A stretch of DNA of 64,000 bases from Solicoccozyma terricola (taxonomy: Eukaryota > Basidiomycota > Tremellomycetes > Filobasidiales > Piskurozymaceae): positions 160,948 through 224,947 of the forward strand of contig BCLD01000019.1 in NCBI GenBank assembly GCA_001600875.1, given 5' to 3'. The notes under the pieces are model-generated. The model was not told the DNA's origin, did no database searches, and saw only the letters and a list, made by a program, of their open reading frames with translations. This document shows, piece by piece, positions 10,655 through 55,535 of this stretch (the first letter of the stretch is position 1; the number at the start of each line of letters is the position of its first letter). A program made the translations under genes and the position numbers.

Positions 10655-11959
10655 TCATAGATACATCTCTCCAGTCGCAACTGTTCGCAATACCAAAAAA
10701 GCAATGTCAGATCCCTTCCTTCCCAACCCCCTACCCTCTCACACTCACCCTTCGTCGCGTCTCCTCTCAACAACACCCTACCCCTCTTTTCCTCCCAAAC
10801 CACTCCTATCTCGCCACGTCTCCTCCCACCTTGCGTCGCAATAATCTCCTTCCCCTCCATCCCTAGTTTCTTCGAATACAATACAGCCAAAGCGGTGTGG
10901 AGAGAACCAGTCACGGGGTCTTCTGGGATACCGAGATCGGGACAGAAGCATCGAGAGTGAAAGAATGGGCCGGTGGTGGTGGTGGTGCGTGGGAGGACTG
11001 TCGTTAATGCGACGGCACGGATGGGTGAGGAAACGGGGAGGTCTCCCTTGAAGGGGGTTGTACCGCGGGTTATGCGGAGATGTGAGTTGAGAGTTGTATC
11101 TTGTCATTCCAAAGGCCAGCCAGAACTCACCAGGAAACTGGGTTGGACATCTACATCCCCAAGATGAGACTCTCCGCAATCTACTTCCAAAACCACATCA
11201 TCTTTACTCGTCCAATATTTCCTAATCGTTACTTTCCCCTTTGTCGCTTTCTCCACAGCTTCATCCAACACCCTCTTCATCTTCTCATCACTGATCTCCC
11301 TCGGTACATCATCCGGGAAATCCAATTCGAACCTCCCTAATGACGTTCCTTCAGGTGAAGCAACCACTTTCCCACCTAGAACACCTCGATGTATCGTTTG
11401 GAATGCGAATCCATTTGATTGTGGGTTAACGGGATAACCGAGCATGATTAGTGCCGCTGTGGATGCTAAAGTCGCATGTCCACATAGGGCTACCTCTGCG
11501 GTGGGAGTGAACCATCGAAGGCCGTAGGGGGGGGGGTCGGAAGGGGATGGAACGAGGAATGCGGTTTCTGAGAGGTTGATCTCGCTGGGGGGGGGGNNNN
11601 NNNNNNNNNNNNNNNNNNNNNNNNNNNNNNNNNNNNNNNNNNNNNNNNNNNNNNNNNNNNNNNNNNNNNNNNNNNNNNNNNATCAGTTGGGGTGGGGTAA
11701 TAGGTGTCGGGGAGACAGACAGAAATGGGGGGAAACTTGCGCTGCAATTTTTTGTTTGATTTCGTCTGTCAAGATTGACTCGGATTTTTTATCGACGACG
11801 ACGACGGCTGTTGGAAAGGGCGCGGCGCGGTAGGGTGAGAAGAGGTGGAGGTAGTAGAAAAGGATAGAGGAAAAACCTCTCGGTCTTACCAGCTGGATTC
11901 CCGCCGAAGGGTGTAGCGCTGAAGGCATCGATGGTGTAGTATCTGATGGTATGTGGCAT
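10655..11959 (-). CDS. PhzF-family isomerase (phenazine biosynthesis-like protein)
   Basis: Member of the PhzF/diaminopimelate-epimerase fold family; the fungal substrate is generally unknown. Starts MPHTIRYYTIDAFSATPFGG with NPA at the first junction. Other signatures are NLSETAF (catalytic Glu region), RWFTPTAEVALCGHATLA, and GIPEDPVTGSLH near the C-terminus. Exons: 11959 to about 11896, 11807-11741, 11584-11132, about 11100-10749, and 10680-10655. The second intron uses a GC donor (GCAAGT at 11740-11735) and its acceptor lies in a C-run next to the 85-base assembly gap. The join gives KIAAEINLSETAF, the expected family sequence. The last small exon gives the end GEMYL. The gap is inside an intron, so no coding sequence need be missing. 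Confidence 0.88.
11597..11681. other. Assembly gap (85 N) inside PhzF-like intron
   Basis: Run of N bordered on the left by ten G (11587-11596). It lies between the GC donor and the acceptor of intron 2 of the PhzF-like gene. On the sense strand the G-run is a C-run just before the CAG acceptor. The N count may be arbitrary. Confidence 0.95.
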
Positions 11960-30260: not shown

Positions 30261-31117
30261 GTCGTTCATATGGGATGATCGATGGGGTTTGCCGCTGGAT
30301 GTTGACGGATGCAGGACCCGTGGTTAACCGGTCCTTACCTTTAGTCGGGGAGAAATTTGGATCTCCGAACCGAAAGCACGCCTTTTCCTTGTCCTTACAA
30401 GATTAAGTACACAAGGGAATCCTACAACCGGGTAAAACGGGGGGATCCGTCCCCCTAAGTTCGTGTCTATAACGAATCTTCAGACGTCATCGTATACCCC
30501 TTCGATGCCTTTCAAACTTCAATATCAGGCGTTGGCACACAATGCTCTATCTGAACATCGGTCTTCCTTTGTCTGTCGGTGTCCTTTACGGTCGCCCCAT
30601 CCTGTGCTATACGAAGCGGGTTTTGTTTGGGGCGTTGATTTGCGTCGCTTGTAGGCTGTAGGAGGTAGAAGGGATGGCAGAGGGGCCTCAGAGGGATATA
30701 AGAAACCGATGAGGAATGCCTTTCCGGAATTTGCCACCCCCGCCTTTTCAATTCGAACCATCCGAAACTCTCAACTCTATTCGATCCTCGACTAGCATCA
30801 CACCTCCCCCTTCAACCAAGCCAGCTTATGGCAGTCGCTATCACCTACCGTCTTCAAGCTTCTTCAGTATCGTATTAAGTACGATAGATCTCCAGATCCA
30901 ACCCCCTTTGCCCAACATCCCAGCCCTGCAACTGGCATGAAAGCGTTAAGAGACGAGAACCAACAGTATTCATCGGTCGCCACGCCCTCAAATCACTCTC
31001 TCAATATCCTGATACGTAGACTTGCCTGGAGTGAACGTACCAATAACCTCACCAATCACGAAGCTCCAGCCTGATAGACATCCCAATCTCGGCTCAAATA
31101 GCTTCACATCACCTTTC
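30123..31117. repeat. Intergenic with (TA)n microsatellite
   Basis: About 1 kb between the 203-aa orphan and the first HSF-type gene. A TA repeat, self-complementary, lies at 30230-30252 about 110 bp after the orphan stop. The rest should contain the HSF promoter and leader. Open frames at 30463 and 30716 are not supported as genes. Confidence 0.5.
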
Positions 31118-32967
31118 ATGACCCAACCTGTCTCGACCGGTATGAACCCAAATGTCCATCACTTCGACAACATCGCCTCCCACCCAGTCAGCAAGCTTAC
31201 TACTCAACAGCCAGTCGCTATCAAACCACGAAGATCCTCAGGTCATTCAAGCACTTCACCCAAGAATGTCAACTTCCTAACCAAGCTCTATGAGTGGGTG
31301 GCGAACGCTTGTTCCTGGTGTTCGCGTATGTTGACCTGTTTTCGACCCCCGCTTCGATAGTTTCCTTGCGATCCACCCCGCTCCTGCATGCGATGCTATA
31401 TACTGGGCAGAGAATGGCAAGGAGTTGGTGATCGCTGATGTGAGTTACATAGCTGTGATCCTCGTGCCAAAACGGAACATGTCAAGCTGATTGTGGTATT
31501 GGTCCACCGTTGGCGATAGTCGATCAAGCTCGAAAGGGATGTTCTTCCAAAGCTTTACAAGCACAACAAGATGGCATCTTTCAGTAGACAGCTGAAGTGA
31601 GTGTAGAAAAACGACACCGCGCAGCATTCGTGAATCCCTGACTAATCAACATGCATCGCCCTCCAGTGTAAGGACTTTGACCTGACCGGTCGCTTTAGAC
31701 ACACCGGAAGATGAGTTTGCTGAGATTTTCACCTCTCATACTACAGATCTACGGCTGGGTTCGGGTCTACCCTGGACGGCAATTCAAGGACGTCGAGGGA
31801 AATATCCGTGAAGATGCAAGTGTTTGGGCTCACCCCGACCTCGACCAATTTTCGACCACGAAAGAAGTCATCGGGATCAAGCGCCGAGCTCCACCCAAGC
31901 TATTCCGCACCAGGAGGCTTGCGAACGGAGAGGTAGTGCTAGTTCGTGCCGGTGCAGAAGTCACCGCTCGTGCGATGAAGATGCAGGAGGAGAAGTTAAG
32001 GGCGTTGGCGTTGAGGAGGCAGCAGGTGATGATGGGATTGAGGCGACAGGACGACGGGACGCCAACCGCCAACCTGGTTCACCCTGAGTGGGAAGAGCAA
32101 GCTGGCACCCTCTCGCCACTCGGCAAGACAGCATCGCAAGCGTTCCATGTCTCGGATGCTTGGGCTATGATGCCATGTCAAGAAGACAACTACGGCGGTC
32201 AGTGGACTACCACAGGCGTTCGCAGTCCCGCCGTAGGCCAAGCGTCGGTCGGCCCCATACCCAGTCCCGCTGATATCATCCAAGCTATGGATGCCCACAG
32301 ACTCAGGACCTCGATCTCGACCAATCTCAGCTCTGAGGTCTCAGAGACCGAATTCCAACCATGGGTGTCGATTGCAAGCTCGCATGATCGATTCAAATAC
32401 GCATGCGAAGACTCCCGTCCAGAAAAAACGAACTCCCCGTCGCTTCTCCGTCACAACGTCCCAGTCTTTGGATCGATGTACCAATGTCAAGAGCACGACT
32501 CTTCCTCCTCAGCTTCAGCCTTGGTGGCTGGTACTACTTGTCAGATGCGATACCTCGTCCCTCCGCTGACACCTACGCACACTTCGGAACGCATCTCCGT
32601 CAACTCCTCCCCGCCTTTCCAATCCCAAGATGCGACGACCGGCGCAGGTCATCTCCTGAAACCGACACTCGCCCCACCAACGTTCTCCAAGCTCGACAAC
32701 TCGTCACAAGGACACTGGTCTCACTCTGATCAGTCACCTGGTGCGCCTAGCATGCTCGTATACGGGCCCTTCGCGAGTGAATCTCCCGCTTATCCTTGTG
32801 AGTGACACTTTATGTACGCCTTCAACTGTTGAGGGCCGAACTGATTTCCCCGACTGGGCGCAGACCGAGAACGAGACTCCTTCATCCGTACGAGCCTTCC
32901 TTCCATCAACGGGGTCGAATTCTCTCGTCACCGAGGAATCAAGGATTCCCCTCTGAACGCTCAGTGA
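31118..32967 (+). CDS. HSF-type DNA-binding transcription factor 1
   Basis: Heat-shock-factor-fold regulator. Proposed exons: 31118-31293, 31361-31439, 31520-31596, 31667 (one base), 31747-32797 and 32864-32967. They sum to 1488 nt, an intact 495-aa frame. The DNA-binding domain reads VNFLTKLYDFLAIHPAPACD, IYWAENGKELVIAD, LERDVLPKLYKHNKM and ASFSRQLNIYGWVRV, matching the HSF pattern (FLxKLY, IxW, VLPKxxKH, SFxRQLNxYGF). A basic stretch with RAPPKLFRTRR and a helical segment (MKMQEEKLRALALRRQ) follow; the rest is Ser/Pro-rich and disordered. The start chosen is the first ATG in the frame (31118); an upstream in-frame TTG exists. No canonical HR-A/B trimer coiled coil is obvious. Confidence 0.85.
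31667..31667 (+). other. Candidate 1-nt microexon in HSF-type gene 1
   Basis: The exon ending CTG AA (31596) is followed by GTGAGT. The first good acceptor, CCCTCCAG at 31666 with branch site CTGACTAAT about 25 nt before, is followed by T and then a donor GTAAGG at 31668. That second intron ends CTACAG at 31746, just before ATC TAC GGC. Using both introns (70 and 79 nt) inserts the single base T and gives AAT, the Asn of RQLN. One intron from 31597 to 31746 would shift the frame. Confidence 0.65.
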
Positions 32968-33507
32968 AGCAGGAAGAGCTCACAGTTGGCGGACGAACGA
33001 TACTCCTCAACGGACCACCCGGGTTCCAAGCGAGTGGTCCGGGCAGGTGGCGAGCAGATAATGGCGGTCGGTATAGAAACCCTTTTCGATCTCATATCGG
33101 TGATTCAGATTCGGCCTCGTTAAACACACCCCCCCCCCCCCCCAATCCGTACCGACATAATGTCGATGTTTATATTTTCAAATATCCTGATTGCATGAGA
33201 TGTGGAGTCAGAATGATGGTCACATGTATTCATCATGGAACATTTCCTCCACCCGCTTGCGTCCAGACATACCACCTCACTAGGCAGAACCCGATTTTTT
33301 AATCGTTCAATGAACAATGAAGAGTTGTGAATACTTTGCATATGCTGTCGTCCGAAATCCTGCTATACACACCACACCTGGCTATACACGCAAACCAACA
33401 CCGTCCTCAATGCGAACCTCCTATGTTTGTTTCCCCGATATTCGAGGATCAACCCTTTCCACTCTGCCTCTTAACCGACTCCAGGTCCACTTCTCCCCCG
33501 CTTGCGT
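32968..33507. other. Convergent intergenic region with C tract
   Basis: 3' regions of HSF-type gene 1 (+) and GRX5 (-). A 15-C run lies at 33129-33143. No gene recognised. Confidence 0.5.
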
Positions 33508-41816: not shown

Positions 41817-41898
41817 CCCCCCCCCCCCCCCCCCCCCCCCCCNNNNNNNNNNNNNNNNNNNNNNNNNNNNNNNNNNNNNNNNNNNNNNNNCCCCCCCC
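41817..41898. other. C tract interrupted by an assembly gap (48 N)
   Basis: Twenty-six C (41817-41842), 48 N (41843-41890), then eight C (41891-41898). The gap is probably an unresolved longer poly-C. It lies only 27 bp before the SPT6 start codon, so inside its 5' leader or core promoter. Confidence 0.95.
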
Positions 41899-52934: not shown

Positions 52935-55535
52935 ATGGACCCATTCCCAACGGGTGAGGACATTTCAGAATTCGTCAAATGCATGGAGGAGAATCTGAAC
53001 ATGTCCCTGAATCTTCATACAGGAGGTGTTCCCGGAGACTACCAGACCCCTTACGCGCCACAACCAGAACCAGAAGAGACTTGCCTGTTTGGGCACGAGA
53101 ATGGTTGGCAGACTCGAGCGGGATCCGGAGTTGGTTCTGGAGCGACTACGAATGTGAACAGCACGACTACGTCCGGTCAATCCACTCCGTTCAGTTATCC
53201 TTGTACGCCGTTAGGTTATAGTCTTCCAAGGAGAGATCACACGTACGAATCGGTGATGACCAGCGACTTGACGGCTCATCAATCGATGCCAATTTTCTCC
53301 CCACAACTCCCAGCATACGGCGCATCTCTGTTTGGTTTTAGCTCTGCACCTCATCTTTTAGACGGAGATCGAACGAAGACGCCGGAGGTGAGGGGCGAGG
53401 AGAGGAAAATGGTTCTCTCTCCTGCACTAACGAAGAAGGGCAAGCCGATCAAGCAAACGCGGAGACCTAATCGTGTCAACTCAATGGACTTGCCAGTAAC
53501 TACAGGGGGTCATGATGTGACATCGCCAGAGAGGGGTAGGAGTTCTCTTTCAAGAAGGTTATCGGCGAAGAGTAGTCATCAGAGGGATGAGAGCAGGAAG
53601 AGTGCCACGTTCTTAACAAAGTTATATCAGTGAGCAGATGGATATTCACATGCCTAATCCGTACAGTTGCTCACATCACGCGACTGTCTCCTACAGAGTC
53701 CTGTCAGTCATTCTTCCCTTGCAAAGGTGGGGTCTAAGGCTGATCTTTCTCCCCTTTTCCCAGCGAGACTCCAGAATACAATGACGTACGTATCGACACT
53801 GTGGGCTCTTCTACACTCAGCTCACTCTCTCTCCTTACCCCTGTAGATGATTCGGTGGGATGCCAGCGGCAGTAAGATCATCATCGATAACCCTGCGGAG
53901 CTGGAGGTCAAGGTCCTCCCACTCGTATACAAGCAGACCCGATTTGCAAGCTTCAGTCGACAGCTTAACGTGAGTTGCTAATCACCTTACCAGCTCAGAG
54001 TATAGCTGACCATGATTACGTTGGGCATTAAGATCTACGGATTCATGAGGGAGGTGAGACAAGGTCGTCGACAAGTCTCCACCGTTCCGGAATCCGGTGA
54101 GACCGGCAAAGAGGTGACAGAACATGATGCTAGCCAATGGAGTAAGTGAGAACGATTCCATCATTCCCGTCCTGTCCCGCTGATTTTCCCCTCCATCATT
54201 GCAGGCCACCTGTCTCTGAACCGAGGGTCACATCCAGACGAGTTGGTCAACTACAAACGCCGAGTCCCTCCCCGCCTGAACGTCCGCAAACCATCGGTAA
54301 CAGAGGCTGCGAAGGATGACCTTGAAAGTAACGGAATACTAAGTGCAGACTGCACTCTGCCGCATACCGCCCCAGCATGCTCTGTTTCCAATCCGACATC
54401 TGGACAGATCTTCTCTAGGGTGGGAAAGATTACTGGCACGCTTCCAATGCCTCGCAGAGTGTCCGATACGGAATATGCCAGTGGTACGAGGACTTCTTAT
54501 CCGGTGCCCCCTTATGCCAGTGGACCAGCGTTGTCCACTTGTCTATCCACGTCCAATGGATTCCCGAACGACGATCCACCCACATCACCCGCTCAGCTGA
54601 ACTACATCGGGGTAGAAAGTCGTCGAATGGCGTGCTGGAACGATAAACATGCCAAGGAGGCTGCAGGGAGTCAGACTGGAAGATCGCCCATCCCATTTGT
54701 TCAGCAATTCTCGACGCCGGCATCCACGTTCAACGATCTCAGCCATAATGCAGATGGCTTCGGGTCATCGAACGGCAGCGATATGACTGGTTCTAAAGGC
54801 TCGCGGGGCCAAGGTATCACTTCAGTCCCTCCTGTCACCGAAAGCACGCCAGTACGGTTCAATCAGACCTTCGGCCCAACGAGCATGAGTGGAATTCGCC
54901 AGACGAACCTACCCGCCATCACATATCTCACTCATGAGTTGGACCATCGTTCCTCGAACCAAGTTCATAACAACGTTGTCTCGTGGCCGCCGTACCCTTG
55001 GCCGCGCGCATCTTCGTCTCCTCAAGTACACGCCACCGAGGATGGTTACGTCGCCTCGATGCCGAACTTCCCGCACAGGACCATTCCAAATCCTTTCCCG
55101 GGGAGGGCCTCCCCAGTCACCCCATCGCCCGACCCGTCGATTATGGGAGTTGACTCGTCCAATCTACAGACCGCGTGGTTGTCAGGCGGTCAACCACCGC
55201 TTTATATGCAAAGGCCTAGAGATATGACGCTTGCGAACGGGCTCTCAGTACACTGGCAGCGATCTCATCCTGGTTTGCGCAACGCCGATGTCTGGCAGTC
55301 GATTCCGTACCCCTTCACCAGGCCAGGATATACCGCCAATGGACCGTTGTTGCCTCTTCAGCCCGGCTTCAGACTGGACAGCCCTGAACTCAGCCTGAAT
55401 AGCCAAGCATTATGTGATGCAGGTGCTTTGACCGAGAACGAAGTACATTTTCAGCGGGACGATGCAGCACGGATCCACGACGATTTGCACGACGAGTTCA
55501 TCAAGGACCCGGACCGAATGGATTCGGAAGGGTGA
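52935..55535 (+). CDS. HSF-type DNA-binding transcription factor 2
   Basis: Second heat-shock-factor-fold regulator. Exons 52935-53629, 53697-53702 (6 nt), 53764-53785, 53847-53969, 54033-54141 and 54205-55535 total 2286 nt, giving 761 aa. Residues 1-225 are disordered and Ser/Pro-rich with basic KKGKPIKQTRRPNR. The DNA-binding domain reads SATFLTKLYQVLETPEYND, MIRWDASGSKIIIDNPAELE, VKVLPLVYKQTRFASFSRQL and NIYGFMREV, with HSF spacing. A linker with NYKRRVPPRLNVRKPS follows, then a long Pro/Ser/Asn-rich C-terminal region likely to act in regulation. The intron after RQLN is phase 0 here, unlike in the paralogue at 31118. No clear trimerisation coiled coil. Confidence 0.88.
53697..53702 (+). 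other. Candidate 6-nt microexon in HSF-type gene 2
   Basis: AGTCCT between acceptor CTACAG (53696) and donor GTCAGT (53703). It supplies Q-V-L of KLYQVLETPEYND and keeps HSF spacing. Flanking introns are 67 and 61 nt. An alternative donor (GTGGGG near 53727) would make a 30-nt exon but leave an intron of only about 37 nt. Confidence 0.6.

Follow-up and report, generated by a model that had tools for sequence, protein, structure and literature searches.

Can a single nucleotide, set between two complete introns, serve as an exon of its own? The question is raised by a gene on the forward strand of the stretch of DNA analysed here (64,000 nucleotides, referred to as the window). A sequence-only reading of this stretch had proposed that base T31667 forms such an exon between introns at 31597-31666 and 31668-31746, and both the sequence and these coordinates were found to be as it gave them. 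Judged on splice signals, reading frame and conservation, two ordinary GT-AG introns around a one-nucleotide exon are indeed the best reading of the junction, and T31667 is very probably a real one-nucleotide exon in the gene of an HSF-type transcription factor.

The HSF-type gene and its predicted exons

The genome that holds the window comprises 23.9 Mb in 33 contigs. Two runs of N within the window, at 11597-11681 (85 bases) and 41843-41890 (48 bases), are probably assembly gaps. The gene extends over 31118-32967 (+) and, as had been claimed, its CDS of 1488 nt keeps its frame when T31667 is included, ends at 32967 and yields a predicted product of 495 amino acids. Residues 53-145 of this product match the Pfam family HSF_DNA-bind (PF00447) with an E-value of 8e-17, and a profile built from the domain also hits the solved chains of HSF1, HSF2 and HSF4; by this predicted DNA-binding domain the gene is assigned to the HSF type, as it had been in the earlier reading. 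The best matches of the product include proteins of Kwoniella, Cryptococcus, Dioszegia and Saitozyma, the nearest named relatives, which belong to the Tremellales, an order of basidiomycetes. The predicted elements of the gene are as follows.

Exon 1: 31118..31293, + strand; ATG at 31118, the start chosen by the gene finder; coding frame +5.7 against -7.0 and -9.5
Intron 1: 31294..31360, + strand; 67 nt, phase 2, GTGGGT..GATAG; gene finder
Exon 2: 31361..31439, + strand; CDS model and coding-frame score
Intron 2: 31440..31519, + strand; 80 nt, phase 0, GTGAGT..GATAG; gene finder
Exon 3: 31520..31596, + strand; ends in ...AGACAGCTGAA, which gives RQL and bases 1-2 of an Asn codon
Intron 3: 31597..31666, + strand; 70 nt, phase 2, donor GTGAGT, acceptor CTCCAG
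One-nucleotide exon T (predicted): 31667..31667, + strand; base 3 of AAT, Asn111
Intron 4: 31668..31746, + strand; 79 nt, phase 0, donor GTAAGG (weak), acceptor CTACAG
Exon 5: 31747..32797, + strand; starts ATC TAC GGC (IYG); coding frame +23.4 against -48.3 and -55.2
Intron 5: 32798..32863, + strand; 66 nt, phase 1; gene finder
Exon 6: 32864..32967, + strand; holds the stop codon; CDS model and masked gene finder

Removal of intron 1 gives LTKLYDFLAIHP, which can be aligned to relatives. The coding score of exon 6 is positive in no frame, its best value (-0.5) being that of the frame used.

The structure was obtained with a home-made gene finder that was self-trained on its own predictions from 264 kb of the same genome. 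Version 1, after three training rounds, comprised 264 introns in 54 predicted genes; the target gene was kept out of its re-estimated tables, though the seed coding model still contained the long ORF of that gene and the background still counted its bases. In version 2, positions 31000-33100 were masked from training and sampling, leaving 55 genes and 267 introns. The finder admits only introns of 35-300 nt and no one-nucleotide exon consisting of a codon's middle base, and its scores include a length prior. The trained consensus consists of donor GTGAGT and branch CTGAY, with a median intron length of 70 nt. In a free run on 30600-33400, version 1 picked both introns and the T31667 exon, and the masked version 2 arrived unprompted at this exon together with the start, the stop and the five introns of the 1488-nt model. 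An additional intron at 32244-32300, predicted by version 1 only, was rejected; it is absent from the masked run, and the residues encoded there are conserved in the homologues P0008 and P0020.

The reading frame at the RQLN-IYG junction

Exon 3 ends in ...CTGAA (the assembly at 31592-31602 reads ...CTGAAGTGAGT...) and exon 5 starts with ATC. Each has a single coding frame, exon 3 scoring +3.8 in that frame against -3.2 and -6.2 in the others and the downstream frame of exon 5 being coding and open for 350 codons, so that the two can be joined in frame only with one added base. T31667 supplies it: it completes AAT, the Asn needed for both the frame and the conserved motif, and the predicted mRNA join is ...CAGCTGAA-T-ATCTACGGC, the skipped form being CAGCTGAA-ATCTACGGC. 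At 31661-31673 (CTCCAG-T-GTAAGG) exactly one base separates an AG from a GT, acceptor and donor both being complete. The earlier statement that a single 150-nt intron shifts the frame into an early stop is borne out, as without T31667 the protein runs from RQLK into STAGFG... and stops after 173 amino acids. The match to PF00447 is reduced likewise, from 62 bits over positions 1-88 for the full model to 46.1 bits over positions 1-57 for the model lacking T.

Annotated proteins of relatives agree on the motif. All 18 aligned relatives, which were drawn from 27 protein matches to the gene product, share RQLN and IYG without variation, and 17 of them have the motif uninterrupted; in the exception, P0021, N and I are separated by 19 additional residues, apparently an intron that annotation failed to remove. 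Outside the aligned set, P0027 has RQLNMYG, and P0001, P0008, P0020 and P0022-P0026 start at the intron's end or beyond it. Searching with the alignment of the domain returned 20 short proteins, the match stopping before the junction in 13. In P0028 and P0029 RQLN passes directly into IYG, and in P0032 and P0044-P0047 it is followed by residues starting with V, as expected of read-through into a donor GTN behind an intact Asn codon. All six read-through homologues (these five and P0021) thus have an apparent single phase-0 intron after intact Asn, at the position occupied here by intron 4. The same arrangement is found in a paralogous HSF gene of the window (52935-55535, +), in the same motif:

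Paralogue's single intron: 53970..54032, + strand; 63 nt, phase 0, after an intact AAC

The ancestral state is most simply one phase-0 intron; given that the homologues and the paralogue appear to have a single intron at the same place, the split arrangement at T31667 looks derived.

At the 3′ end of the intron, the read-through of P0001, P0023 and P0024 leads into ...Q-IYG, which is what CAG-ATC would give. P0001, a metagenome protein of the closest relative that corresponds to 31699-32805 (+) of the window, is 95% identical and starts at a Met inside intron 4, so that everything upstream of the split intron is missing from its gene call. Its frame is intact over 365 residues, with 12 read-through residues, 15 substitutions and one single-residue insertion, and this open frame argues for a living rather than a decaying gene. 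Comparison of P0001 with viral contigs and genome contigs gave 7 and 14 pattern matches, none of them a relative. No antisense ORF across the junction was found, no second copy of the T31667 locus was found in the genome, and a tRNA scan gave no hit.

Splice signals, chance and competing explanations

Both introns carry the elements expected of a complete short intron, that is a donor, a branch candidate and an acceptor, and they flank the base that completes the conserved Asn codon. The branch candidates of intron 3 are CCTGACT and ACTAATC, ending 23 and 19 nt before its 3′ end, and the best candidate of intron 4 is GCTGAGA, ending 21 nt before its 3′ end. Intron 3 lies at the 92nd percentile of the 264 training introns in total score and intron 4 at the 16th. 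The low rank of the latter is due to its donor GTAAGG, a hexamer seen in none of the 264; this donor stands at the 8th percentile, or at the 14th after removal of intron 3. Two introns are nonetheless favoured over one 150-nt intron by 4.8 nats in version 1 and 4.7 in version 2, in a comparison that combines splice signals, length and intron rate.

How often such a split would arise by chance was gauged with several controls. The target's score was reached by none of 4000 dinucleotide-shuffled interiors, and by 3 of 1500 when microexons of 1-16 nt were allowed. Among 20000 genomic 138-mers, with the target masked, 10 reached it, the exon being C or T in one; an earlier sample, in which the 138-mers could overlap the target, gave 9 in 19182, three of these with a pyrimidine exon. 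No training intron scored better split than whole, either among the 264 (best -13.2) or among the 267 (best -12.8), three of them having a splittable AG-N-GT, and introns that the finder had itself split would be missing from these sets. Introns of at least 150 nt are few (9 of 267), and none falls between 140 and 160 nt. No other internal exon shorter than 6 nt was predicted among the 219 internal exons of 55 genes, where the shortest others measure 6 and 10 nt.

The most serious competitor, though an unlikely one, is a deletion made in sequencing or assembly, by which an intact Asn codon before GTGAGT, followed by one ordinary 150-nt intron, has come to look like a split one. It agrees with the six of six read-through homologues and the paralogue, in all of which the donor directly follows Asn; the search for a further copy of the locus gave none, and the assembly does contain gaps. 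Against this, the loss of a pyrimidine between GAA and GTGAG would be no homopolymer error, the intron left behind would have a length that is rare in this genome (9 of 267 at or above it), and the good split would have to be coincidental, at about 1 in 20000 genomic 138-mers with a pyrimidine or 10 in 20000 with any base. A real loss of the base that was never mended, leaving one 150-nt intron and a 173-residue protein cut in the DNA-binding domain, or else a pseudogene, is less probable still. The model lacking T is precisely what a single intron would produce, but exon 5 has kept a coding frame open for 350 codons, the 95%-identical P0001 has kept its own open too, and the good split would again be a coincidence.

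Other splice forms that keep the frame have to be weighed as well. A survey of structures with one or two GT-AG introns of at least 35 nt, with donors at 31575-31740, acceptors at 31600-31775 and the frame kept, returned nine that are stop-free; the one-nucleotide exon ranked best at 2.6 nats, and the runner-up, at -5.0, breaks the motif. Three stop-free forms were compared with the one-nucleotide exon and full intron 4: an intron 31597-31724, which gives RQLK plus an insertion, is 7.6 nats worse; an intron 31597-31715, giving RQLN and ten inserted residues before IYG, is 10.4 nats worse; and the T exon followed by a shorter intron 31668-31710, with a twelve-residue insertion, is 8.6 nats worse. 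All three also place extra residues within a motif that 17 of 18 aligned relatives have uninterrupted, and it would be most surprising if any of them were the form used.

Known one-nucleotide exons and possible origin

The predicted exon is of a kind already known. The earlier reading was right that such exons are rare, but its list, which named APC11 alone, was incomplete, as VPS55 (PMC8831610) and Fusarium CYP621A (PMC12940212) have been reported too. In plants, APC11 (PMC4674806) and VPS55 (PMC8831610) have one-nucleotide exons between two introns; these are described as conserved in most land plants and confirmed by RNA-seq and by sequencing of RT-PCR products (PMC4674806, PMC8831610), while T31667 is known from genome sequence. 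The aligner STAR is reported to miss the one-base exon of APC11 easily unless junctions are supplied (PMC8831610). The closest likeness is to CYP621A, where 20 orthologues and RNA reads in two species are reported (PMC12940212): both are fungal nuclear genes with two short introns around one motif-restoring base, and the intervening sequence of ~139 nt in F. graminearum (PMC12940212) compares with 150 nt between exons 3 and 5 here. The CYP621A exon supplies the second base of a Gly codon (PMC12940212), whereas T31667 is the third base of an Asn codon, and the present case concerns another gene and, judged by nearest relatives, another phylum. In searches of open-licence PMC papers, no listed title or abstract dealt with a one-nucleotide exon from a basidiomycete or from an HSF gene. 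T31667 would be a new member of the kind, lying in the gene for a basidiomycete transcription factor; should it be confirmed, the very short list of nuclear genes with such an exon would grow by one and, as far as those searches reach, come to include basidiomycetes.

Single-nucleotide exons of mitochondria involve other intron types. Examples are those of placozoan cox1 (PMC5436844) and of Ophiostoma mitogenomes (PMC12308204). Stwintrons, the spliceosomal twin introns of fungi, likewise undergo two consecutive splicing reactions within one composite sequence (PMC9024468). In these an internal intron lies within a splice element of an external intron (PMC9024468), whereas T31667 lies between two complete introns, and a stwintron was rejected on this ground. 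The microexon of Trichoderma Xlr2, whose inclusion is reported to be regulated by glucose (PMC11121469), is 20 nt long as against 1 nt here.

Splicing at T31667 would proceed by intron definition and in sequence, as it is unlikely that splicing complexes could occupy the two sides of a single base simultaneously; intron definition with stepwise removal is also what the authors of the APC11 study suggest for Arabidopsis (PMC4674806). Intron 3, with the stronger signals, may be the first to leave; GAA-T would then abut intron 4's weak donor, GTAAGG, and intron 4 would be removed at the ancestral 3′ end. This order is contrary to that told of potato invertase, in which the second intron beside a 9-nt exon leaves first (PMC4674806). 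An artificial one-nucleotide exon in the same gene is said there to be skipped in 33% of transcripts (PMC4674806).

Two routes could have led to this arrangement. The last exon base may have been lost and a cryptic AG-T-GT within the enlarged intron taken up, by which the frame was saved; a comparable rescue of a lost exon base is proposed by the CYP621A authors (PMC12940212). Alternatively, a new 70-nt intron may have been inserted one base upstream of the old one. A copied intron or introner was rejected, as 31590-31755 matches only itself in the genome, and so was a tandem duplication of intron 3 into intron 4, blastn-short giving no match between the two introns. No copy of intron 3 elsewhere and no likeness to intron 4 were found, which favours neither route.

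The suggestion that skipping of T31667 acts as an on/off switch found no support, as no conserved two-intron arrangement was seen and the skipped form is simply a frameshifted protein of 173 amino acids. There is little reason to favour a broader joint reading, in which a lineage-specific one-nucleotide exon arose by splicing rescue, its regulated skipping leaves no working HSF domain and the HSF genes of this fungus are repeated sites of microexon birth, with a 6-nt candidate in the paralogue as a further instance.

Some minor observations concern other HSF genes. The DNA-binding domain of the paralogue at 52935-55535 (+) contains a candidate 6-nt microexon, AGTCCT, at 53697-53702 (+), flanked by introns 53630-53696 and 53703-53763 and giving LTKLYQ-VL-ETPEYND; the split reaches 5.3 nats and a single 134-nt intron 0.1, and apart from T31667 no smaller internal exon was predicted in the 264 kb. 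Another HSF gene is present in two copies on different contigs (L005 on C24, L006 on C5), 98.9% identical over 2399 bases and 99.7% over 606, with single Ns scattered in both. The two copies are either the result of recent segmental duplication or a remnant of a second haplotype.
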